From: Charina bottae
Lineage: Eukaryota; Chordata; Lepidosauria; Squamata; Charinaidae
DNA: 64,000 nt
Assembly: GCA_023362775.1 (NCBI GenBank)
Contig: JALMGJ010000003.1
Location: 47,633,916-47,697,915 of the forward strand
Direction of reading: 5' to 3'
Within the stretch, counting starts at the first letter, position 1; every line of letters begins with the position of its first letter. The notes under the pieces were generated by a model. The model saw nothing but the letters and a program-made list of their open reading frames with translations. It searched no databases and was not told the origin of the DNA. A program made the translations under genes and the position numbers. Shown piece after piece: positions 1-54,810 of this stretch.

Positions 1-3000
1 TCATTTTCTGTTCCTTGGATGGGTAACTTTACCTATTAACCATTTAATGGGTGAAAGCTTCATGTGCATCCCCACCCCAGTCCGGTCTGTTGCATGCCCA
101 GCACACATGAATGAGAACATACGAGGTGCCTAAAGTTAATCTTGGATGCTTTTTTGAGATTCCTGCCAAATGGCTTTTTTACATTTATGGCACTTAGGGA
201 CACATCACCTGCTTCTTGAATCTGCCTTCCCAGCATGTTTAAGTGGGTCCCAGTTCAATCCCTTACCTCCTCATCTATTTGCTAATTTGTTTATAAATCT
301 GTGAGCATTTGCAAGACATAAAGCCCAATATTAGTGTTTGGTTAACATCTGTCCCTTCTTCTGCATATAGCGCGGTGGGGAATTGCTTTGCTTCGCCAAT
401 GATATCTCAAGTGCAAAGTTGATGAGCTACTCCAAAGGTGAATTTAAATATGGAAATGTTATATTATGCAGTAGGGTGAGCATGGTGTCAGATTTAATGA
501 AATTATATTTTGGCTATTTAGAAGAATCCAACGGATAAATAAAGGAAATATGGAAGATTTGCTTTAGCTTGTTGGACTATTCATCTATATCAGCCATGAT
601 GGTGGCCCTATCCTAATTCACTGGTATTGTAGCCCATCATCACTGAAATAAAAAGGGTTGAATGGGAGAGACTTTGAAGAATAGTCCCTTTTGTCTGATT
701 TGCAGAATTTCTCCTTATAAGTCCTGAATTTAGACTAATTACAATATTTTACTTAAGATCTGGTTTCCTGATCCTTTAACATAGGGTTATTAAGTATGAG
801 TGTAAACATGTTATTACATTGTAGGCATGTAAGTAAATGATACTTGGAATTTGGTGGTGGTGGGGATTTTTGCTCATCCATGTCACAGGGTGCATGAATA
901 TTGTAATGCATGAAACAAGATATGTTCAAGAATGGGAAAAGTTCTAGTAGGATCTCAGATGCTTCCCTTACCTTAGGAGGTTACTTTTGTATCTTGTATA
1001 TAAGTTACACATGAGCTGCTGCTCTTGTGTTTTTAAAAATATAGTGTGTAGTTTCTGGTCAAGCCATAGTAGATTGTCCAGAATTCAGGTCACAGGTAGA
1101 AGAGTTTTCTCTAGCACTTGAGCTAAATTTTGACTGCAGGGACAGTCACTGACTTCAAACACCTCCCTACTCATACGTGTGCAATGCATGCAGTGCATGT
1201 TAAAAGGAGGTGGGGCTCTGATCGCCTGGTTGTGCCTGCCATTTTAAAGTCTGGGGCCATCATTGCTGATGCCCCTGTCCCCCAATCACTTTGTGTTTTG
1301 GACAAACATTCATTGAGCATGTTGAATTAATTATATTTATGCACAGGCATATGTCTCCTGGAAATATGTGGTAAGTTAGTATTTAATATAGCTATATCCT
1401 TATTCTCAATTTGAACTACTGTACGTGGAGAGCAACTGAGGTGGAATGAATATTACATAATATAAAAAAAGAGTTAAATTCCAGGGAACACCATCTTCAC
1501 AGGTCCTTACAGAAGTCCTAAAGCATCTGTTGAGACAGAGTCAGGTTGCAAGACAACATGGCACGGTTCAGCAATGTTGTGATCTTTTGAAGACCACCAA
1601 TGCGCCATGAAGAAGTCACTATGATTTGTTTTCCCAGTTGATACCTGGCATTTGTAATGGACTTCAGCTGTCAGAGCTTTACCACTGTATGCACATCTCC
1701 TCATTTCTGACATGGATATTCATGCTCCTTAAAAAGGGCGGGATTAAGTCCTGGAAGAGTGAGCGAAATGGGCACCCTTCTGAGATATTTGTTTAATATC
1801 TACAGTTGGCAATAGAATTGTTATTGCACAGATTTTGGTAATTGGGACTGGCACTTGGAATCCTTACTTGAAAACATGAACTAAGGAGCTCCTGGTTAAT
1901 ATCTAGTATTCTTCAAATAGAAAATTAACATTTCTTTTCAAGCAACCACACTTTTTTTTCCTCCTGGAGATATCTGATCTGACCCATAGCTTAGGGTATT
2001 TTCCCTCTGAAGAAAAGAGTGAGAACAAATTAAGGCAAAAGAATTTCTGGATTTCTCTTCCAAAAGCATTTCAGCACTCCTGGCTACTAATCCCACTGGC
2101 CCTATCCATCATCATTGATAGTTTGAGAACCAATTCATTTATCACATGGCTCTAACATTGTCACCTAGAGCTCTGGATACATAGACCCAATTTCTTGGAT
2201 TTGGTCTTTCATGTGGCCTCTTCCCTGCTGGCATCCACTCAATCACTCCTCTTGCCATCTGAACTTCTTCTAAGCTATCCATATGTCATACATTTCCCAA
2301 CCACCTGGTGGTTGGGCTTGCAGTGCCGACTTCTAGTGCTACTTTATTGCTCCTTTGTTTGCTCCCATATACTTTGAGTGTCATCAAAGAATCTACAGTG
2401 CAATGACTGAAACACTTTTGGAGACTTTGCTGATGATTCCATCCATTTAGATACTTTAATTAATTACATCTATTTATTATATCAGTTCTATCAATATGTG
2501 TTAACATGGAATGTAATATAAAACAATAAAACAAAACAATGAATTCAAATAAATACACTTGGATAAAAACGAAACAGTGACTTAACTACTGACTCTGAGA
2601 CCCCAAAGTTTAAATGCAACTCAAAGTTTTGACCAAGATATCAAAATGGAGCAAATGTTTATGCTGCCCTTGACACTGAGGAGGATATTCCACAATTGTG
2701 GTTCAACTCCCTCTCCCCCCCAAAAAAAATCCTTTTCTTGTATCTCCATATAATTTACTACTCCCCATAATGGGATACAGAGAAAAGTCCCCTTGGCAGA
2801 TCATAATACTCAAGCAGGATTATATACAGAGAGATATTTTGATTCATGGGAAATCCCAGTCATATCTTCTCTGCACCATCATCCCAGGAAATACTGTGCC
2901 TTGTCTACTCCTTCAAATCTTTTTTATATTGGATAAATATCTTTATAATTTTCTCCCCATCCCAACAGGGACTTGGGGATTTACAGTGACTTTTAGCAGG

Positions 3001-4680
3001 TTGAGGCTTATAAAAATTTGAATTATTCCATGTAATATACAGACCATCTTTGTAACCAAATGCTAGAGGCATCAATATAATAATACTGTAGTTTTTTAGT
3101 TACAAGATTGTTAGAGTAATAGTAGTTACTCTACTCTTAGGGTTTCCCAGTATAAACTGTTGAATGAAACGATTCATATGAATATAATGTCAATGTTATT
3201 GTATTATATAGTGATAACTGCAGTTGAATTGATGTAATTTAATGTAGTTCTGCTTTTTGTCCCTAAACACTATTGTCTGAGTTGCTTTGAACACACTATT
3301 GGTGTACCGTAAAGTGCAATATAGAAATGCACTATCCCCTGTTACCATTTTGTCTTCTAACTTATATTAGTCCCTACGAAACAATTCATGGTTGGTGAAA
3401 TGTTCTCCGTGGCAGCCCGAAACTTGGTCCTTTGGAGGTTTATGGTAGCATGATTAAAAATGGTCCAAGCCCTGGTCCAAATAAAAAAACTGCAGCTTTG
3501 GATTTGAGAAGAGCTGCTGTGAGGACACAGTAGTTATGGTGGGGAAAAGAAGTAACCAAATAGCTTCTCTATGGTGGAAGTTTGAGGTGGGTTGGCCCTT
3601 TAAGGAGGAGGCATCTGCTTTCCAATATTCCTGGATTTCCCCTGCTCTCTGTTCAGCTAGAGGTGCCTTGATTACAATTAATATTCCTTGCTGCAGGGGA
3701 GAATCAGCTGTAGCATATTCCTGTTAACTGCCTTTTGCTCTCTGACCATTCCTCTCATATAATTCTTGATAAGTTAAGTAGGACCAGCCAACATTAACCT
3801 TATTACCAATGATGGTTTGAGCAATCCTACAGTCCTGAGGTATCATAGAGATCTCTCAGGAACAGGGAAGCCAGTTTTCACACAGGATTAATTTCACTGC
3901 CTCTGACCTTTAAGCTACAAATTGCCTTTAAAAAAAAAACCTGACAGTAATTTCTGCTCCTTTTTGTTTTTGCTTTTCATTCACAAGTATGCCAGTTTGC
4001 CATACATTTTGAGATACTGATGAAAGATAGTATTGGATTCAAATGTATGCATTGCTTAAATATGCTCTATTGATTAGGACTATTAAGGAAATCCACAAAA
4101 TGAATAATAGGTAGACTGGATCCAAGATAATTTGGACACATAGAAAGGAAGGGCTTCCTCTACTCTTCCTCTGCCTCTACTCAGAGAAAGCTCAGGGATC
4201 TGGCAGAAGTTCCAAATGGAGCTTTCCAAATGGGCTCCAGAGGTTTTATGATGATTAAAAAAAAATCTGTCCAGTACTTTGAAGACTGTCTGCATGCTCA
4301 GAGAAAGGACTAATAGGGAGTAACTGGCTTTTGTCTGGAGGAGGGGACGGTTAGACTTGGCATGTAGGATTATGGTCAGTTGATGATTCATAACTGGTTA
4401 TGTCTTCCTTTGCAGCCATTTTATGCATTTGCAAGCTCAAGGGCTTACTGTGTGTTCCCCAAATTTTCAAATGCACCCAAAGGGTTTGAGACACCCTATG
4501 TATTAAATTTATCTCCCTATCCTAGGGAATAATATGGAACGACCGTGCAGCATAAACTGTATTACCTGTGTACAGTTCAAAATAATATTTAATATTAGAC
4601 AACCCATGCCCCTTTCGGTCATCATTTCAGAGATATTTCCTTACCTAAACAGAGAAATAGAATGACCATGGGTGGGCAAA
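1..4680. other. unassigned AT-rich intergenic DNA
   Basis: No convincing gene is visible. All open frames are short (about 107 codons at most), have no recognisable domains, and lie in both strands at the density expected by chance. There are short homopolymer runs (poly-A near 2717, 3930 and 4258) but no clear repeat family. It may contain ancient repeats too diverged to recognise by eye. Confidence 0.6.
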
Positions 4681-9311: not shown

Positions 9312-11910
9312 GCGAACAATGCTGTTCATTCATTGGCGATCACCCGTAGCCGAGTAAGATTGTCTTCCAAAGGTAAAATTTTAATGGTGAATCCGTAAGT
9401 GGCTATAAAGGCCAATTCTGGATCCGCACAACCTCCCGCAATGAGGGCATAGGTTTCCGGGTGGGAGACGGTCATGATGAGGGTTTGCCTGACGTGCCTT
9501 CCTTTTAGCTCTTTTCTCCTTTTCGCCCCGTACTCATGCTTCTTCAAAGTCCATAGCGCCATTAATAAAGGATGACCTCCAATTGAAACGCTCATGAGTT
9601 AGGGCTTCCCAGTTCTCAATGCTGATATTACATTTTTTTAAATTAGCTTTGAGAGTATCTTTGAATCTCTTTTGCTGTCCACCAATATTCCGTTTTCCAT
9701 TCTTAAGTTGGGAGTAAAGTAGCTGCTTTGGAAGACGATGGTCAGGCATTCGAACAACATGACCGGTCCAGCGAAGTTGATGTTGGATGATCATTGTTTC
9801 AATGCTGGTGGTTTTCGCTTCTTCTAATATGCTAACATTAGTCCGCCTATCTTCCCAAGTAATTTGCAGAATTTTTCGGAGGCAGCGTTGATGGAATCTT
9901 TCAAGAAGTTGGAGGTGGCGTTTGTAGAGGGTCCATGTTTCACAGGCGTACAGAAGGGTTGGTAGTACAATGGCTTTGTAAACAAGCATTTTGGTCTCCC
10001 TGCGAATGTCCCGATCCTCAAACACTCTACGCTTCATTCGGGAGAAAGCTACACTCGCAGAGCTCAGGCGATGCTGAATTTCAGCGTCGATGTCGGCTTT
10101 TGTAGATAGATGGCTGCCGAGATAAGAAAAGTGATCGACATTTTCTAGTGACACACCTTTAAGCTGGATTGATGGCGCTGCAGAGGGATTGGTTCGAACT
10201 TGCTGGTAAAGCACTTTGGTTTTTTTAATGTTAATCGAGAGGCCGAGCTTTTCATATGCTTCTGTAAAGATGTTTAGGATAGTTTGAAGATCTTCCTCGG
10301 AGTGTGCACAGACTACGTTATCATCAGCATATTGAAGTTCTATAACAGAAGTTGCAATTACCTTATTTTTTGCTTTCAGCCTACTAAGATTAAAAAGCTT
10401 TCCATCTGTTCGATATATAATTTCTACACCAGTAGGAAGTTTCTCTTCAACAAGGTGCATAATCATAGCGATGAAGATAGCGAATAAGGTTGGAGCAATA
10501 ACACATCCCTGTTTAACGCCGGATTCCACTTTAAATGGATCGCTTTGAGAGCCATTGTTATTCAGGATTGTTGCCATCATGTCGTCATGGAGTAACCGCA
10601 AGATGTTCACAAATTTATCAGGGCATCCGATTTTCAGAAGGATGGTCCAGAGAGCAGTACGATTTACAGTATCAAAAGCTTTAGTCAGACCAATAAACGC
10701 CATGTACAGAGGGCGGTTTTGCTCCTTGCATTTTTCTTGAAGCTGTCGTGCAGTGAAGATCATATCCACTGTTCCCCTGGAAGGGCGGAAGCCATTTTGT
10801 GTTTCAGGGAGGATGTCTTCTGATTCAGATAGGAGACGGTTTGCAATGATCTTTGCCAGGATTTTGCCTGCTGTGGCTAGAAGGGAGATGCCTCGATAGT
10901 TTCCACAGTCTGTTCTATCACCCTTTTTAAAGAGAGTGATAATTATGGCATCCCTAAAGTCTGCTGGAATCTCCTCCCTCATCCAGATTTTTTCGATGAG
11001 CTTATGAAGTTGTCGTGTAAGTTCAGGCCCGCCTTCTTTAAAGACTTCAGCAGGAATCCCATCAGGTCCACTAGCTTTGTTATTTTTCATTTGTTTAGTG
11101 GCTTTGCTGACTTCCTCCAAACTAGGGGGTACTGCAAGCTCATTTCTTATTTGTTTTTGCGGGATTTGCAAGAAGACTTCATCAGCCACAGTAGAGTGAC
11201 GATGAAGGAGATTGTAGTAATGCTCTTTCCAGCGCAGTGCAATAGACTCTTTGTCCTTTAGAAGTTTAGCACCATCTACTGAGCGTAAGGGATTTGTACC
11301 ATGGTTTGTTGGTCCATAGATGGCCTTTATGGCATTAAAAAAGCCCCGTGCATCATGAGCATCTGCAAAATGTTGGGTTTCTTGGGCTTTTTTTATCCAC
11401 CATATGTTCTTAAGTTCTCTAGTTCTTCTTTGAACTTCTGCCTTTGCACTGGCGTAGATTTTTTTCTTAACGGCACAGTTAATATCTTTTTGCCATATCT
11501 GGAAGGCTTTCCTTTTCTTGTCAATAATATGTTCAATCTCACTATCGTTCTCATCAAACCAGTCCTGATGTCTCTTAGTCTGGTATCCGATAGTTTGTTC
11601 ACAGGCTGAAATAATAGAAGTCTTCAATTTAATCCAGTGTTCCTCAACATTTCCAGGAAGTTCCATAGGCAGATGTTCCTTGAGAGTTGATTGAAAGCAA
11701 GCTTGTTTAATAGGATCTTGAAGGGCCAGTGTATTCATTTTACACCTTGGTTTTCTTCCTTGGAGCCTACGATGAGGGACAATCTTTATGGCCATCGTGG
11801 ATCGAATTAATCGATGGTCTGTCCAGCAGTCATCGGCGCTCGTCATGGCTCTGGTGAGAAGTACATCACGGCGATCTCTAGCACGGACAAATGCTGTATC
11901 ACATGTAGAA
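9312..11910 (-). mobile_element. 5'-truncated APE-type non-LTR retrotransposon (LINE)
   Basis: This minus-strand element runs from about 11910 (5' break inside the endonuclease domain) to 9312, and ends next to a (TTTA)n run. It holds the end of the apurinic-type endonuclease, a full reverse transcriptase and a C-terminal zinc finger, followed by a short 3' UTR of about 70 bp. No target duplication could be identified because the 3' side merges with another LINE tail. The clade is uncertain: the C-terminal LRWTGH region and the APE end resemble RTE-like elements, but phylogeny would be needed. Confidence 0.85.
9381..11909 (-). pseudogene. LINE endonuclease/reverse transcriptase ORF, catalytically damaged relic
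   Basis: The frame is open from about 11909 to 9537 on the minus strand and encodes the last motif of an APE endonuclease (TSADDCWTDHRL, about 11846-11811), then a reverse transcriptase with fingers motif KASGPDGIPAE, GNYRGISLLAT, GFRPSRGT, motif C LQYADD, and the C-terminal LRWTGH region. Motif A reads FIGLTKAFD where the family has an aspartate in place of G, so a metal-binding catalytic residue is missing (codon GGT near 10698-10700). A single in-frame TGA at 9534-9536 is followed in the same frame by a CCHH zinc finger (CPHCGRLC...HLRIHH, about 9384-9449) and a TAA at 9381-9383. The TGA probably arose from a CGA arginine codon. The first in-frame ATG (11844-11846) is internal and not a true start. 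It was probably a competent LINE that died through truncation and point mutation. Confidence 0.85.
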
Positions 11911-13682: not shown

Positions 13683-13694
13683 ACTCATTCAATT
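13683..13694. repeat. left target-site duplication of the BovB insertion
   Basis: ACTCATTCAATT at 13683-13694 is repeated exactly at 16891-16902, immediately after the 3' tail of the BovB element. A perfect 12-bp copy fits target-primed reverse transcription and fixes both element ends. Confidence 0.92.
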
Positions 13695-16600
13695 CCCCTT
13701 CATGGATCACTGCCTTGTCGTGGCGAAGGGGCTTGCGTAACTCAATGAAGTCAGGTCAAGAAGAACAGGTCATGATGGAGAGTTCTGACAAAACGTGGTC
13801 CACTGGAGGAGGAAATGGCAAACCACTCCAGTATCCTTGCCAAGAAAACCCATGGACAGTATCAAAAGGCTAAAAGATATGACGCCGGAAGATGAGCCCC
13901 TCAGGTCGGAAGGTGTCCAAAATGCTACTGGGGAAGAGCGGAGGGCAATTCCGAGTAGCTCCAGAAACGGTGAAACGGCTGGGCCAAAGCCGAAAGGACG
14001 CTCAGTTGTGGATGTGTCTGGAAGTGGAAGGAAAGTCCGATGCTGTAAAGAACAATATTGCATAGGAACCTGGAATGTAAGAACTATGAATCAAGGTAAG
14101 CTGGATGTGGTCAAACATGAGATGACAAGATTGAACATCGACATATTGGGAATCAGCGAACTAAAATGGACAGGAATGGGCAAATTTAATTCAGGAGACC
14201 ATTATATATACTACTGTGGGCAAGAATCCCTTAGAAGAAATGGAGTAGCTCTCATAGTCAATAAAAGAGTGGGAAAGGCAGTGCTGGGGTACAACCTCAA
14301 AAATGACAGAATGCTTTCAGTTCGAATCCAAGGCAAACCATTCAACATCACAGTGATCCAAGTCTATGCCCCAACCACTGATGCCAAAGAAGCTGAAGTT
14401 GACCGGTTCTATGAAGACCTACAACACCTTCTAGAACTAACACCAAAAAAAGATGTCCTTTTCATCATAGGGGACTGGAATGCTAAGGTAGGAAGTCAAA
14501 AAATAACCGGAATAACAGGCAAGTTCGGCCTCGGAGTACAAAATGAAGCAGGGCAAAGGCTAATAGAGTTTTGTCAAGAGAACACGCTGGTCATAGCAAA
14601 CACTCTTTTCCAACAACACAAGAGACGACTCTACACATGGACATCACCAGATGGTCAATACCGAAATCAGATTGATTATATACTTTGCAGCCAAAGATGG
14701 AGAAGCTCTATACAATCAGCAAAAACAAGACCTGGAGCTGACTGTGGCTCAGATCATGAGCTTCTTATTGCAAAATTTAGGCTTAAATTGAAGAATGTAG
14801 AGAAAACCACTAGACCAATCAGGTATGACCTAAATCATATCCCTTATGAATATACAGTGGAAGTGAGGAATAGATTTAAAGGATTAGATCTGGTAGACAG
14901 AGTGCCTGAAGAACTATGGATGGAGGTTCGTAACATTGTACAGGAGGCAGCAACTAAAACCATCCCAAAGAAAAAGAAATGCAAGAAAGCAAAGTGGCTG
15001 ACTGATGAGGCTTTACAAATAGCTGAGGAAAGAAGGGAAGCAAAAGGCAAGGGAGAAAGGGAAAGATATAAACAACTGAATGCAGAATTCCAGAGAATAG
15101 CAAGGAGAGATAAGAAGGCCTTCTTAAATGAACAATGCAAAGAAATCGAGGAAAACAATAGAATGGGGAAGATTAGAGATCTCTTCAAGAAAATCGGAGA
15201 TATCAAGGGAACGTTTTGTGCAAAGATGGGCATGATAAAGGACAAAAAAGGCAGGGACCTAACAGAAGCAGAAGAGATTAAGAAGAGGTGGCAAGAATAC
15301 ACAGAAGAACTATACAAGAAAGATCTTAATATCCCTGATAAATACGATGGTGTGGTCACTGACCTTGAGCCAGACATCCTAGAGAGTGAAGTCAAGTGGG
15401 CCTTAGGAAGCATTACTAACAACAAAGCTAGCGGAGAAGACAGTATCCCAGCTGAGCTATTTAAAATCCTAAAAGATGATGCTGTTAAAGTGCTGCACTC
15501 AATATGCCAACAAATTTGGAAAACTCAACAGTGGCCACAGGATTGGAAAAGGTCAGTTTACGTTCCAATTCCAAAGAAAGGCAATGCCAAAGAATGTTCA
15601 AACTACCGTACAATTGCACTCATTTCACATGCCAGCAAGGTTATGCTCAAAATCCTACAAGCTAGGCTTCAGCAGCATGTGAACCGAGAACTACCAGAAG
15701 TGCAAGCTGGGTTTCGAAGAGGCAGAGGAACTACAGATCAGATTGCCAACATTCGCTGGATCATGGAAAAAGCAAGAGAGTTCCAGAAAAACATCTACTT
15801 CTGCTTCATTGACTACGCTAAAGCCTTTGATTGTGTGGATCACAACAAACTGTGGCAAATTCTTAAAGAGATGGGAGTACCAGACCACCTTACCTGTCTC
15901 CTGAGAAACCTGTATGCGGGTCAAGAAGCAACAGTTAGAACCGGACATGGAACAACCGACTGGTTCAAAATTGGGAAAGGAGTACGACAAGGCTGTATAT
16001 TATCACCCTGCTTATTTAACTTATATGCAGAGTACATCATGAGAAATGCCGGGCTGGATGAATCACAAGCCGGAGTTAAGATTGCCGGGAAAAATATCAA
16101 CAACCTCAGATATGCAGACGATACCACCCTAATGGCAGAAAGTGAAGAGGAACTAAAGAGCCTCTTGATGAGGGTGAAAGAGGAGAGTGCAAAAGCTGGC
16201 TTGAAACTCAACATTAAAAAAACCCAGATCATGGCATCTGGTCCCATCACTTCCTGGCAAATAGAAGGGGAAGAAATGGAAGCAGTGACAGATTTCATTT
16301 TCTTGGGCTCCAAGATCACCGCAGACGGTGACTGCAGCCATGAAATTAAAAGACGCTTGCTCCTTGGAAGGAAAGCTATGGCAAACCTAGACAGCATATT
16401 AAAAAGCAGAGACATCACCTTGCCGACAAAGGTCCGTATAGTTAAAGCTATGGTTTTTCCAGTAGCAATGTATGGCTGTGAGAGTTGGACCATAAGGAAG
16501 GCTGAGCGCCGAAGAATTGATGCTTTCGAGCTGTGGTGCTGGAGAAGACTCTTGAGAGTCCCTTGGACTGCAAGGAGGTCAAACCAGTCAATCCTGAAGG

Positions 16601-16890
16601 AAATCAACCCTGACTGCTCATTGGAAGGACAGATGCTGAAGCTGAAGGTCAAATACTTTGGCCACCTAATGAGAAGAGAGGACTCACTGGAAAAGACCCT
16701 GATGCTGGGAAGGACTGAGGGCAAAAGGAGAAGGGGACGGCAGAGGATGAGATGGTTAGATAGCATCACCGATGTAATGAACATGAATTTGAGTAAACTC
16801 CGAGAGACAGTGGAGGACAGGAAGGCCTGGCGTGCTATGGTCCATGAGGTCACGAAGAGTCGGACACGACTGAACGACTGAACAACAACA
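13695..16890 (+). mobile_element. full-length RTE-BovB LINE
   Basis: The element is about 3.2 kb: a short 5' leader beginning near CATGGATCACTGCCTTGTCG, one long ORF, and a minimal 3' end of only nine bases (AACAACAAC-type) after the stop codon. Perfect 12-bp target duplications (13683-13694, 16891-16902) bracket it. The near-absence of a 3' UTR beyond the ORF and the ACAACA-type tail are typical of BovB. Intact ends, uninterrupted ORF and perfect duplications point to a recent insertion. The truncated copy at 54.2-54.8 kb is close to it in sequence, whereas the 32.7-35.9 kb copy is a diverged relative. Confidence 0.95.
13795..16881 (+). CDS. BovB LINE endonuclease/reverse transcriptase, intact ORF
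   Basis: The frame is open for 1028 codons after a stop at 13786-13788. The position at 13795 is a GTG, and the first ATG in frame is at 13852 (1009 residues), the more likely start. Numbering from 13795: an APE-type endonuclease (about residues 88-330) keeps N94 in TWNVRT, E122 in ISELKW, D227 and N229 in GDWNAK, and D320-H321 in SDHELL. A linker rich in Lys and Arg follows (about 340-480). The reverse transcriptase (about 530-830) has NNKASGEDSIPAE, motif A FIDYAKAFD with D673, RQGCILSP, and YADD at 773-776. The C-terminal region (about 835-1028) has YGCESWTIRKAERR and LKVKYFGHLMRR and ends KSRTRLND. The protein would nick target DNA and copy its own RNA at the nick in the nucleus, and could also mobilise SINEs sharing its 3' end. 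No lesion is visible. One oddity is S550 where the second copy has G. Activity is inferred, not shown. Confidence 0.95.
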   Translation: MVHWRRKWQTTPVSLPRKPMDSIKRLKDMTPEDEPLRSEGVQNATGEERRAIPSSSRNGETAGPKPKGRSVVDVSGSGRKVRCCKEQYCIGTWNVRTMNQGKLDVVKHEMTRLNIDILGISELKWTGMGKFNSGDHYIYYCGQESLRRNGVALIVNKRVGKAVLGYNLKNDRMLSVRIQGKPFNITVIQVYAPTTDAKEAEVDRFYEDLQHLLELTPKKDVLFIIGDWNAKVGSQKITGITGKFGLGVQNEAGQRLIEFCQENTLVIANTLFQQHKRRLYTWTSPDGQYRNQIDYILCSQRWRSSIQSAKTRPGADCGSDHELLIAKFRLKLKNVEKTTRPIRYDLNHIPYEYTVEVRNRFKGLDLVDRVPEELWMEVRNIVQEAATKTIPKKKKCKKAKWLTDEALQIAEERREAKGKGERERYKQLNAEFQRIARRDKKAFLNEQCKEIEENNRMGKIRDLFKKIGDIKGTFCAKMGMIKDKKGRDLTEAEEIKKRWQEYTEELYKKDLNIPDKYDGVVTDLEPDILESEVKWALGSITNNKASGEDSIPAELFKILKDDAVKVLHSICQQIWKTQQWPQDWKRSVYVPIPKKGNAKECSNYRTIALISHASKVMLKILQARLQQHVNRELPEVQAGFRRGRGTTDQIANIRWIMEKAREFQKNIYFCFIDYAKAFDCVDHNKLWQILKEMGVPDHLTCLLRNLYAGQEATVRTGHGTTDWFKIGKGVRQGCILSPCLFNLYAEYIMRNAGLDESQAGVKIAGKNINNLRYADDTTLMAESEEELKSLLMRVKEESAKAGLKLNIKKTQIMASGPITSWQIEGEEMEAVTDFIFLGSKITADGDCSHEIKRRLLLGRKAMANLDSILKSRDITLPTKVRIVKAMVFPVAMYGCESWTIRKAERRRIDAFELWCWRRLLRVPWTARRSNQSILKEINPDCSLEGQMLKLKVKYFGHLMRREDSLEKTLMLGRTEGKRRRGRQRMRWLDSITDVMNMNLSKLRETVEDRKAWRAMVHEVTKSRTRLND

Positions 16891-16902
16891 ACTCATTCAA
16901 TT

Positions 16903-32035: not shown

Positions 32036-32672
32036 ATGTAAGAATTAATTTAAAAACTTTCTAGTTGACTAGAACCCAGTAAAATTCACAACATGTGGTG
32101 CTGGATTAAAGTGTTATTGGAATATTATTATAACAATTTAATTAAAAATACACATTCTTCATTTGATTAATACAAAACTGAAAAAGTCGTTTTAGTGGCC
32201 CCTCTCAATGATTCTACATTATACAGTTTTAAATTAATCAACCACTAAATTGTGCTGAATACATTTTTCTGTGCAGAATACATTAGCCTGGACGGTGCCC
32301 ATATTCAGTTGCGAGGGTGCTTTATACCTAAAATATTTTTTAATCTGGAGAAAGCAGAGAAATATTAGAAAACATTAGAAGTATTAGAATACAAGGTTTT
32401 ATGCAGGCAGTATGTATCTAATAGATCATTTCTTGCTTTAGGATTCAGGAAATTAGTAAATGAAAATTTCTTTCACAGAAATGTGTATTACTGGAATATT
32501 TAATATTAAATTTATTGATAACTTATCAATAGATAAGTAGATATTATTTCTATGTTTACTTCTTTGCAATCTAGGGACTTTTTAAACAAATCTTATGCTA
32601 CATCTACTTGTGAATGCTTTAATAAATCAGACACTTTTCTATTTTATCAGTGGTAAAAATCTAATTCTCCAG
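32036..32672. other. unassigned AT-rich DNA
   Basis: No gene or clear repeat is visible between the LINE-like tail at 32.03 kb and the start of the second BovB copy. Confidence 0.55.
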
Positions 32673-35600
32673 CAAAGGAGATCGTTACCTTGTCATGGTG
32701 CTGGAGCTTGAGCACCTCAATGAAACCATGAGCTAAACCGTGAAGGGACAACCAAGACGGGAAGGTCGTGGCAGAGAGGTCAGACTAAATACGATCCCTG
32801 GGGAAGGTAATGGCAACCCACCCCAGTATTCTTGCCGTGAAAACTAAATGGATCAGTACAACCAGAGATATGTCGGTATACCATCGGAAGATGGGACTCC
32901 CAGGTCGGAAGATGGTCAAAATGCTACTGGGGAGGAACAGAGGATACGTTCAACTAGCCCCAGATGTGATGACGCAGCTAGCTCAAAGCCGAAAGGACGG
33001 CTAGCGGCCGACGGTGCTGGTGGTGAACAACGAATCCGATGTTCTAAAGATCAACACACCATAGGAACCTGGAATGTAAGATCTATGAGCCAGGGCAAAT
33101 TGGATGTGGTTATTGGTGAGATGTCAAGATTAAATATAGACATTTTAGGTGTCAGTGAACTGAAATGGACTGGAATGGGCCACTTCACATCAGATGACCA
33201 CCAGATCTACTACTGTGGACAAGAGGACCACAGAAGAAATGGAGTAGCCTTCATAATTAATAATAAAGTGGCTAAAGCAGTGCTTGGATACAATCCAAAA
33301 AACGATAGAATGATCTCAATTCGAATTCAGGGTAAGCCATTTAACATCACAGTGATCCAAATATACGCCCCAACCACAGATGCTGAATAAGCAGAAGTAG
33401 ATCAGTTCTATGAGGATCTGCAGCACCTACTGGATAATACACCAAAAAGAGATGTTATTTTCATTACAGGAGACTGGAATGCTAAGGTGGGTAGTCAGAC
33501 GACACCTGGAATTACAGGCAAGCATGGTCTGGGAGAACAAAATGAAGCAGGACATAGGCTGATAGAATTTTGCCAAGACAACTCACTGTGCATAACAAAC
33601 ACTCTCTTCCAACAACCTAAAAGACGACTTTATACATGGACTTCACCAGATGGTCGACACCGAAATCAGATTGACTACATCCTTTGCAGCCAAAGGTGGC
33701 GGACATCTATACAGTCGGTAAAAACAAGACCTGGAGCTGACTGTAGTTCAGATCACGAACTTCTTATTGCAAAATTTAGAATCAGACTAAAGAGAATAGG
33801 GAAGACCCACAGATCAGTTAGATATGAGCTCACTAATATTCCTAAGGAATATGCAGTGGAGGTGAAGAATAGATTTAAGGGACTAGATTTAGTAGATAGG
33901 GTCCCGGAAGAACTATGGACAGAAGTTCGCAACATTGTTCAGGAAGCGGCAACAAAAAACGTCCCAAAGAAAAAGAAAACCAAGAAGGCAAGATGGCTGT
34001 CTGCTGAGACACTGGAAGTAGCCCAAGAAAGAAGGAAAGCAAAAGGCAACAGTGATAGGGGGAGATATGCCCAATTAAATGCAAAATTCCAGAGGTTATC
34101 CAGAAGAGATAAGGAATTATTTTTAAACAAGCAATGTGCGGAAGTGGAAGAAGACAATAGAATAGGAAGGACAAGAGACCTCTTCCAGAAAATTAGAAAC
34201 ATCGGAGGTAAATTCCAGGCAAAAATGGGTATGATCAAAAACAAAGATGGTAAGGACCTAACAGAAGCAGAAGAGATCAAGAAAAGGTGGCAAGAATATA
34301 CGGAAGATCTGTATAGGAAGGATAATAATATTGGAGATAGCTTTGACGGTGTAGTCAGTGAGTTAGAGCCAGACATCCTGAAGAGTGAGGTTGAATGGGT
34401 CTTAAGAAGCATTGCTAATAACAAGGCAGCAGGAGACGACGGTATCCCAGCTGAACTGTTTAAAATCTTGCAAGATGATGCTGTCAAGGTGATGCATGCC
34501 ATATGCCAGCAAATTTGGAAAACACAAGAATGGCCATCAGATTGGAAAAAATCAACTTATATCCCCATACCAAAAAAGGGAAGCACTAAAGAATGTTCAA
34601 ACTATCGAACAGTGGCACTTATTTCACATGCCAGTAAGGTAATGCTCAAGATCTTGCAAGGTAGACTCCAGCAATTCATGGAGCGAGAATTGCCAGATGT
34701 ACAAGCTGGGTTTAGAAAAGGCAGAGGAACTAGAGACCAAATTGCCAATATCCGCTGGATAATGGAGAAAACCAGGGAGTTTCAGAAAAACATCTATTTT
34801 TGTTTTATTGACTATTCTAAAGCCTTTGACTGTGTGGATCATAAAAAATTGTGGCAAGTTCTTGGTGGTATGGGGATACCAAGTCATCTTGTCTGCCTCC
34901 TGAGGAATCTGTATAACGACCAAGTAGCAACAGTAAGAACAGAGCACGGAACAACGGACTGGTTTAAGATTGGGAAAGGAGTACGGCAGGGCTGTATACT
35001 CTCACCCTACCTATTCAACCTGTACGCAGAACACATCATGCGACGTGCTGGGCTTGAGGAATCCAAGGCTGGAGTTAAAATCGCTGGAAGAAACATTAAC
35101 AATCTTAGATATGCAGATGATACCACTTTGATGGCTGAAAGCGAGGAGGAGCTGAGGAGCCTTATGACGAAGGTGAAAGAAGAAAGTGCAAAAGCTGGGT
35201 TGCAGTTAAACCTCAAAAAAAACCAAGATTATGGCAACCAGCTTGATTGATAACTGGCAAATAGAGGGAGAAAAAGTGGAGGCAGTGACAGACTTTGTAT
35301 TTCTAGGCGCAAAGATTACTGCAGATGCTGACTGCAGCCAGGAAATCAGAAGACGTCTACTTCTTGGGAGGAGAGCAATGGCAAATCTTGATAAAATAGT
35401 TAAGAGCAGAGACATCACACTGACAACAAATGTCCGCATAGTTAAAGCAATGGTATTCCCTGTAGTAACCTATGGCTGTGAGAGCTGGACCATAAGGAAG
35501 GCTGAGCGAAGGAAGATAGATGCTTTTGAACTGTGGTGTTGGAGGAAAATTCTGAGAGTGCCTTGGACTGCAAGAAGATCAAACCAGTCCATACTCCAGG

Positions 35601-35890
35601 AAATAAAGCCAGACTGCTCACTTGAGGGAATGATATTAAAGGCAAAACTGAAGTACTTTGGCCACATAATGAGAAGACAGGATACCCTGGAGAAGAAGCT
35701 GATGCTAGGGAAAGTGGAAGGCAAAAGGAAGAGGGGCCGACCAAGGGCAAGATGGATGGATGATATTCTGGAGGTGACAGATTCAACCATCGGGGAGCTG
35801 GGGATGGTGACGGCCGACAGGAAGCTCTGGCGTGGGCTGGTCCATGAAGTCACGAAGAGTCGGAAGCGACTGAACGAATAAACAACAACA
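32673..35890 (+). mobile_element. second BovB LINE, near full length, diverged
   Basis: The copy starts near GGAGATCGTTACCTTGTCATGG (homologous to the 5' leader of the 13.7-kb copy) and ends GAACGAATAAACAACAACAAAC. It spans essentially the whole element but differs at many positions in both leader and ORF, so it belongs to a different BovB subfamily or is older. A convincing target duplication is not seen; only CTAATT is shared by the two flanks. Confidence 0.92.
32848..35881 (+). pseudogene. BovB endonuclease/reverse transcriptase ORF with one stop and one frameshift
   Basis: From ATG 32848 the reading frame gives an APE-type endonuclease (TWNVRSMSQGKLD, VSELKW, TGDWNAK, SDHELL) and a reverse transcriptase (NNKAAGDDGIPAE, FIDYSKAFD with its catalytic aspartate, YADD). 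Two lesions break it. A TAA at 33388-33390 sits where the intact copy has a glutamate codon. At 35214-35221 an A-run holds one extra A compared with the intact copy, shifting the frame. The C-terminal part (YGCESWTIRKAERR, LKYFGHIMRR, ending KSRKRLNE) then continues at 35231-35881. All recognisable catalytic residues are retained, so the loss is recent or limited. A product from this copy would stop inside the endonuclease domain. Confidence 0.92.
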
Positions 35891-36197
35891 AACACCTAAT
35901 TGCCTTCTTGCATACCAATTTTTTTTCTTACTTTCTTTGCATCTGCTGCTCAACAAATGAATCTCCAAAGAGAGATACAGTATGTTATGATACAGTGTCA
36001 GTTAAATTAATCCTGATCAATTTTAAAGTTCACATTCTTATTTGATGACTTTCTGGGGGATATACTAAAACTGAGATTGACTTTCAGTCCCCTTTGTTGT
36101 TAAAATGTTGCTGATTGAAAGCTTGAAAAATAAGACACTCTTACTGTCAGTTTAGTATCCTGTACTGCCTTATAACTGAATACACTAGCCAGTGTTC
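35891..36197. other. unassigned DNA
   Basis: A short stretch between the BovB 3' tail and the next hAT element, with nothing recognisable. Confidence 0.5.
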
Positions 36198-54183: not shown

Positions 54184-54810
54184 TTGTTGTTGTTCAGTCG
54201 TTTAGGCGTGTCCGACTCTTCGTGACCTCATGGACCATAGCATGCCAGGCCTTCCTGTCCTCCACTGCCTCCCGGAGTTTACTCAAATTCATATTCGTTA
54301 CATCGGTGATGCTATCTAACCATCTCATCCTCTGCCGTCCCCTTCTCCTTTTGCCTTCAGTCTTTCCCAGCATCAGGGTCTTTTCCAGTGAGTCCTCTCT
54401 TCGCATTAGGTGGCCAAAGTATTTGAGCTTCAGCTTCAGCATCTGTCCTTCCAATGAGCAGTCAGGGTTGATTTCCTTTAGGATTGACTGGTTTGACCTC
54501 CTTGCAGTCCAAGGGACTCTCAAGAGTCTTCTCTAGCACCACAGTTCGAAAGCATCAATTCTTCGGCGCTCAGCCTTCCTTATGGTCCAACTCTCACAGC
54601 CATACATTACTACTGGAAAAACCATAGCTTTAACTATACGGATCTTTGTCGGCAAGGTGATGTCTCTGCTTTTTAATATGCTGTCTAGGTTTGCCATAGC
54701 TTTCCTCCCAAGGAGCAAGCATCTTTTAATTTCATGGCTGCAGTCACCGTCTGCGGTGATCTTGGAGCCCAAGAAAATAAAATCTGTCACTGCTTCCATT
54801 TCTTCCCCTT
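54184..54810 (-). mobile_element. 5'-truncated BovB LINE (3' end only)
   Basis: The plus strand starts TTGTTGTTGTTCAGTCGTTTA, the reverse complement of the BovB 3' end. About 620 bp of the ORF C-terminus is present. The sequence is much closer to the intact copy at 13.7 kb than to the 32.7-kb copy. A G-run (54832-54842) lies just beyond its 5' break. Confidence 0.93.
54194..54808 (-). pseudogene. BovB ORF C-terminal fragment with one in-frame stop
   Basis: Read from 54808 down, the frame encodes MEAVTDFIFLGSK, YGCESWTIRKAERR, then a TAG at 54533-54535 where the intact copy has a tryptophan codon (TGG), then RVPWTARRSN and LKYFGHLMRRED and ends KSRTRLND. Endonuclease and reverse transcriptase catalytic parts are absent, so it is non-functional by truncation as well as by the stop. 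Confidence 0.92.

Follow-up and report, generated by a model that had tools for sequence, protein, structure and literature searches.

The window analysed here, a 64,000-nucleotide stretch of the Charina bottae genome (contig JALMGJ010000003.1, positions 47,633,916 to 47,697,915 of the forward strand), contains a full-length BovB long interspersed nuclear element (LINE) of the RTE clade, which we place in a family termed A and whose 5' leader is a putative hepatitis delta virus (HDV)-like self-cleaving ribozyme. The element is laid out as follows.

13683-13694, plus strand: 5' target-site duplication, ACTCATTCAATT, the same 12 bp as at 16891-16902
13695-16890, plus strand: full-length BovB (RTE) LINE of family A, 3,196 bp, bounded by the target-site duplications
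13852-16881, plus strand: main open reading frame (ORF) from the probable ATG, 1,009 aa, in the same frame as an ORF of 1,028 codons
14065-14757, plus strand: APE-type endonuclease domain, Exo_endo_phos, PF03372 (Pfam E 4.3e-17), residues 91-321 of the 1,028-codon frame
15568-16284, plus strand: reverse transcriptase domain, RVT_1, PF00078 (Pfam E 3.4e-41), residues 592-830 of the 1,028-codon frame
16882-16890, plus strand: 3' tail of the (CAA)n type
16891-16902, plus strand: 3' target-site duplication, ACTCATTCAATT, the same 12 bp as at 13683-13694

The initial annotation had described identical 12-bp flanks, an uninterrupted ORF of 1,028 codons and a full set of catalytic residues, and all three descriptions hold. 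On the strand as given, the 12-bp sequence occurs exactly twice in the window, at 13683 and 16891, bracketing 3,196 bases. From the GTG start chosen by the ORF finder, the frame runs uninterrupted through 1,028 codons (13795-16881), and the preceding in-frame stop ends at 13788, giving a stop-to-stop length of 1,030 codons. Residues N94, E122, D227, N229, D320, H321 and D673 and the YADD motif at 773-776 lie where they had been placed, and these catalytic residues (Y773 was left out of the check) are identical in 13-17 of 17 aligned relatives, the remainder being gaps save for one T at N94. The arrangement is that of an RTE element: a single ORF encodes the APE endonuclease and then the reverse transcriptase, and a separate ORF1 is absent, ATG-started frames that begin in the leader (13695-13851) reaching at most 42 codons. 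Of the solved structures, LINE-1 ORF2 proteins come closest in sequence (E 1e-36).

The BovB/RTE identity proposed at the outset is supported by the Pfam domains, the named relatives, the (CAA)n tail and the T|A target signature. Among the best 120 of 825 protein matches, relatives named from Podarcis (77-84% identity), Varanus (64-87%) and Bos (80-84%) are mostly partial, fluke, rotifer and bacterial names likewise occur, the top-scoring full-length database protein is from Podarcis muralis (84% identity), and no near-identical protein is listed. Reptilian Bov-B is described in PMC13295347 as having a T|A target signature and a (CAA)n tail, as against (CTGAA)n in cattle. The named relatives by themselves point to a squamate or a ruminant host, and the tail points to a squamate. 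Like the reptilian Bov-B of that account, the present element exceeds 3 kb, has an RTE-type single ORF and a (CAA)n tail, begins with a run of C and has duplications that mostly start with A after a T. No relatives of the element were found in a viral contig collection, a search of contigs from other genomes returned one relative locus at 24% identity, and phage and plasmid DNA gave 2 and 117 matching records, all below 60% identity (20 of the 117 listed). Positions 13695-16890 are a complete copy of a BovB (RTE-clade) LINE.

Family A is very young, active now or very recently. A search of the genome (1.80 Gb in 278 contigs) gave 4,371 candidates, 40 of which were scored to yield 43 rows: 40 full-length rows, the window copy included, at 99-100% identity, and three partial rows at 99, 100 and 88%. 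The element is not a product of chance because 40 full-length rows stand at 99-100% identity; the near-identical copies that the initial annotation had proposed to look for do exist, and an absence of copies within a few percent is refuted. Together with the window copy, 27 of the other 39 full-length rows were fetched, a set of 28 that represents the best-scoring end of the family and is uninformative on the fraction of broken copies. All 28 are full length, with an open frame, the same starting bases and a (CAA)n tail, and identity to the window copy is 99.4-99.6% for the other 27. Two pairs, L002/L004 and L013/L024, are identical across 3,196 bases and have different flanks. A script found target duplications of at least 8 bp in 23 of the 28 copies (none in L004, L009, L013, L024 or L028); read by eye, the duplication starts with A in 20 of the 23 and is preceded by T in 21. 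The window also holds a copy of a second family.

32667-35893, plus strand: full-length copy of a second BovB family (B), its 3' end placed by eye and its open frame split into three pieces

Family B is 76% identical to the family A copy over query bases 85-3209 and about 68% over the leader. A genome search with it gave 944 first-look candidates, and the 40 scored were 99-100% identical over the 5' 193 bases.

A 5' leader, which had been listed as such, is indeed present in the window copy; it is not featureless, and can be folded as a putative HDV-like ribozyme with the following parts.

13695-13802, plus strand: putative HDV-like ribozyme, expected to cleave between 13694 and 13695 (descriptor match, A/B covariation, sub-threshold match to RF02682)
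13695-13701, plus strand: 5' strand of P1, 7 bp with 13725-13731 (element bases 1-7/31-37; descriptor, covariation)
13703-13710, plus strand: 5' strand of P2, 8 bp with 13795-13802 (element bases 9-16/101-108; descriptor, covariation)
13712-13724, plus strand: P3, 3 bp, with the 7-base loop L3 (element bases 18-20/28-30; descriptor, covariation, RF02682)
13725-13731, plus strand: 3' strand of P1, or P1' (descriptor, covariation)
13739-13784, plus strand: P4 domain, closing helix 13739-13743/13780-13784 (element bases 45-49/86-90; covariation)
13785-13794, plus strand: J4/2, with the proposed catalytic C at 13789 (element C95) and then AAA (from sequence; the catalytic role is inferred)
13795-13802, plus strand: 3' strand of P2, overlapping the ORF finder's GTG start (descriptor, covariation)

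HDV-like ribozymes carry a catalytic C in J4/2, followed by N-A-A. The J4/2 motif is C-A-A-A in family A and C-U-A-A in family B, P1 is about 7 bp long with its first base at the 5' end of the element, and P2 and P3 build a pseudoknot in which P1' comes immediately after P3', in family B with a one-base bulge in P2. In the HDV-like layout, P1 opens at the cleavage site with its first base, and the core consists of L3 and J4/2 (PMC4908430, in part).

Three comparisons bear on this fold. A double-pseudoknot descriptor made of P1, P2, P3 and the J4/2 motif, composed after the fold had been seen, has a single match when both strands of the window are scanned, and it falls on 13695, where the element begins. 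Twelve randomised 64-kb strands, built by resampling base-to-base steps, gave 0-2 matches each (8 in total, at any position), so that a match somewhere is unsurprising, whereas a match on the element's first base is surprising. The descriptor misses family B, the P2 of which has a bulge. Across 22 pairs comparable between families A and B (one P2 pair of family A has no counterpart in B and was left out of the count), 14 are unchanged, one has changed on one side and none is broken; in the remaining seven both sides have changed and still pair, three of these pairs lying in P1, two in P2 and one each in P3 and P4. When changes were simulated independently at the observed rate, no pair was broken in 1 of 200,000 runs and at least seven double changes arose in 16 of 200,000. 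Within families, pairing holds in 643 of 644 cells for 28 A copies and in 660 of 660 for 30 B copies, the copies in both counts being near-identical and selected by similarity. Finally, an Rfam search with the 108 bases alone aligned RF02682, an HDV-type family, from 13695 to 13768 over the whole model (1-74), with P1 and P3-L3 in the register of the proposed fold, a match that lends the ribozyme weak support.

The 5' ends of the copies are close to constant. The ribozyme core pattern occurs 9,704 times in the genome (4,841 and 4,863 by strand), against 0 for a backwards control, and 0 times in the viral contig collection. The start is shared by 28 of 28 fetched A copies, and the first base by 29 of 30 fetched B loci, one having T for C at +1; the query for the B loci began one base inside the element, which favours complete ends. 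A less biased set of 50 loci was drawn with the internal core pattern, 10 of them chosen mostly for an unusual P1' and 40 in listing order from contig C1. In this set, which includes two loci with a common flank, 45 loci have their family's first base and five differ there; base 3 differs as well in two of the five. Positions -10 to -1 are never constant, the commonest base reaching at most 21/28, 15/30 and 23/50 in the three sets. Across the 108 loci, a stretch of at least 9 bases from the element's own 5' region abuts +1 in three, direct in L009 and L090 and inverted in L028; the other 105 have none. A base preference at -1 was considered as a ribozyme signature and dropped, G being found there in 1 of 30 B loci but 8 of 50 of the others.

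Several points weigh against a ribozyme. The RF02682 match reaches 17.1 bits where the gathering score is 44 (E 0.22), an unrelated minus-strand Rfam match had a better E-value in the same search (0.071), the Rfam search of the family B leader matched nothing, and Rfam over 3,401 bases around the element listed no HDV-type ribozyme. The covariation rests on two families only; P4 and the P2 of family B were positioned by someone looking at both sequences, and that P2 requires a bulged base. P1.1 offers only one clear pair, a G-C between L3 and base 38 that is read from sequence and shows no covariation, and a pseudoknot-free fold does not show the P1 of family A. As drawn, J1/2 of family A is one base long, and constructs of drz-Agam-2-1 with a one-base spacer cleaved little, which counts against the fold as drawn if the outer P2 pair is closed, although the same paper lists ribozymes with short J1/2 linkers among the fast ones (PMC4908430, in part). 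The putative ribozyme begins with C, and C1 has been reported for active trypanosomatid HDV-like ribozymes (PMC4035085, in part). In 7 of the 23 A copies with a duplication, a single base separates +1 from the perfect duplication. A genome search for a third ribozyme family by an altered-P1' pattern gave five places, against one for the backwards control; two of the five are decayed B copies without compensation and three are unrelated. A 5' end of a third type was likewise not seen when both 5' ends were compared by BLAST with the fetched loci of more than 300 bases; L002 and L006 showed short pieces. One locus, L065, has an A-type 5' end with a P4 arm that resembles that of family B, and its leader is possibly older or recombinant.

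In one alternative the element is an ordinary BovB that has no ribozyme and whose leader serves as internal promoter and untranslated region, the constant 5' end reflecting a sharp transcription start and the helices being coincidental. A sharp transcription start could also give constant 5' ends, RF02682 stays below threshold for family A and no Rfam family matches B, and random sequence yields 0-2 descriptor matches per 64-kb strand. On such an account, however, the sole descriptor match in the window would have fallen on the first base of the element by accident, and seven pairs would have been compensated on both sides, with none broken, between families that are 76% identical over most of their length. 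We regard it as unlikely. The reading that we hold to be quite probable is that of a very young BovB LINE family, inserted by target-primed reverse transcription, whose first ~108 bases would form an HDV-like self-cleaving ribozyme with its pairs kept in the second family. On the strength of the comparisons above, we consider the leader a well-supported putative HDV-like ribozyme in BovB.

Based on these observations, we propose the following model. First, a host promoter in the flank would drive transcription of an element inserted by target-primed reverse transcription. The nascent RNA would then fold and cut just before +1, so that the full-length RNA starts at +1 whatever host sequence lies upstream; the ribozyme would remain on the RNA and be copied along with it. 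Subsequently, the single endonuclease-reverse transcriptase protein, probably translated from the ATG at 13852 downstream of the ribozyme, would nick a T|A site and reverse-transcribe the RNA from its (CAA)n tail. The GTG that opens the 1,028-codon frame falls within the 3' strand of the proposed P2 (13795-13802). In family B a TAA stands immediately 5' of the ATG homologous to that at 13852, and because family B has this stop codon right before the homologous ATG, translation is likely to start at ATG 13852. An in-frame ATG at 13702 reaches a stop after 12 codons. Small upstream ORFs of 12, 42 (two nested) and 26 codons lie at 13702-13895, some of them overlapping the start of the main ORF.

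The initial annotation also saw in the window copy a candidate source element. Its frame, catalytic residues and duplications are all intact, as that proposal supposed, but it is the most diverged of the 28 fetched copies. It lies 12 changes from their majority, the others lying 1-9 away, and it differs from each of the other fetched copies at 13-19 positions, where the mean among the others is 8.4. Its changed codons comprise eight replacements and four silent changes; summed over the other 27 copies, with shared variants counted repeatedly, there are 51 replacements and 71 silent changes. Three of the eight replacements fall at well-conserved positions, where agreement among the relatives having a residue is 15/17, 16/17 and 16/16; at the first of these one relative carries the residue of the window copy, and none of the three is among the catalytic residues named earlier. 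The silent excess in the other 27 copies suggests descent through working elements, and the replacement pattern of the window copy is what would be expected of drift after insertion. Judged on 28 fetched copies of 4,371 candidates, a source role for the window copy is weakly supported. That it is itself the active source of family A seems to us very improbable, with the nearest of the 27 others 13 differences away and three replacements at well-conserved positions set against its intact frame, residues and duplications; it is probably not the main source but an older, slightly diverged offshoot.

Active HDV ribozymes at the 5' ends of RTEs and other LINEs are described in PMC7936874, which cites Ruminski 2011 among others. 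Like the 5' HDV-like ribozymes of R2, R4/Dong, L1Tc and RTE LINEs, the leader would form a nested double pseudoknot, with a cleavage site, here predicted, at the first base of P1 and thus at the 5' end of the LINE (excerpts of PMC3774820, PMC4908430 and PMC7936874). In contrast to them, it occurs in two BovB families, begins with C, has a 7-base L3 and a short J1/2, and has P4 as its variable domain. R2 in most tested species cleaves inside the 28S flank, and not at +1 as predicted here (PMC3774820, in part). With RF02682, HDV-F-prausnitzii, the leader shares a 7-bp P1, a 3-bp P3, a 7-base L3 and CGUGG at L3/P3', but that family is named for a bacterium, the score is below gathering and the match ends at 13768, before the proposed 3' strand of P2. 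A leader ribozyme of another class, such as a reduced twister, is very improbable, since the covarying pairs form an HDV-type double pseudoknot and Rfam gave no twister match for either leader up to E 10, a search that could miss a truncated twister, even though truncated twister ribozymes at RTE 5' ends are announced as in preparation in the excerpt of PMC7761336.

No statement of a BovB ribozyme was found in the open-licence papers searched, subscription papers being outside that scope: the available parts of PMC3905857 and PMC6850104 do not link BovB and ribozymes, and the word ribozyme is absent from the main text of PMC13295347. We believe that the LINE is of an ordinary kind, though from a strikingly young family, and that the finding is the leader, which would be a known kind of ribozyme in BovB. 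That an active HDV-like ribozyme at +1 is a general property of BovB LINEs, freeing their RNA from any host transcript, is a tentative extension to which we give somewhat less than even credence. If true, BovB would be independent of a promoter of its own, which would help explain its success after horizontal transfer, and host genomes would hold thousands of potential self-cutting sites, as the 9,704 core matches here illustrate. Among vertebrate LINEs, BovB is the textbook case of horizontal transfer. With a self-cleaving ribozyme at its 5' end, an element could ride any host transcript yet keep its correct 5' end; this would go some way, simply and testably, towards explaining why RTE-clade LINEs spread so readily in new hosts, which has been called unclear (PMC13295347, in part). 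Furthermore, the A/B covariation supplies the exact bases for in vitro testing.

Several other arrangements of the element were seen. In L009 (80-121) about 21 bases of the element's own 5' region are repeated directly before +1, and in L090 10 bases are; these direct repeats suggest that the cDNA re-started on its own 5' end. L028/L062 (C154:4007300-4012700) has an inverted piece of the 5' region directly before a full-length copy, as in twin-priming-like events. In L060 (C227:2919496-2926087) one family A copy is followed, after about 100 bases, by another in the same orientation that begins near element base 119. Elsewhere in the window, a 5'-truncated family A copy lies on the minus strand at 54184-54810, 97% identical over 627 bp to the copy at 13695-16890 and more diverged than the fetched full-length copies. 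Another LINE-like element is marked by a 770-codon open frame on the minus strand at 9534-11846, with a reverse transcriptase domain and no Pfam endonuclease match.

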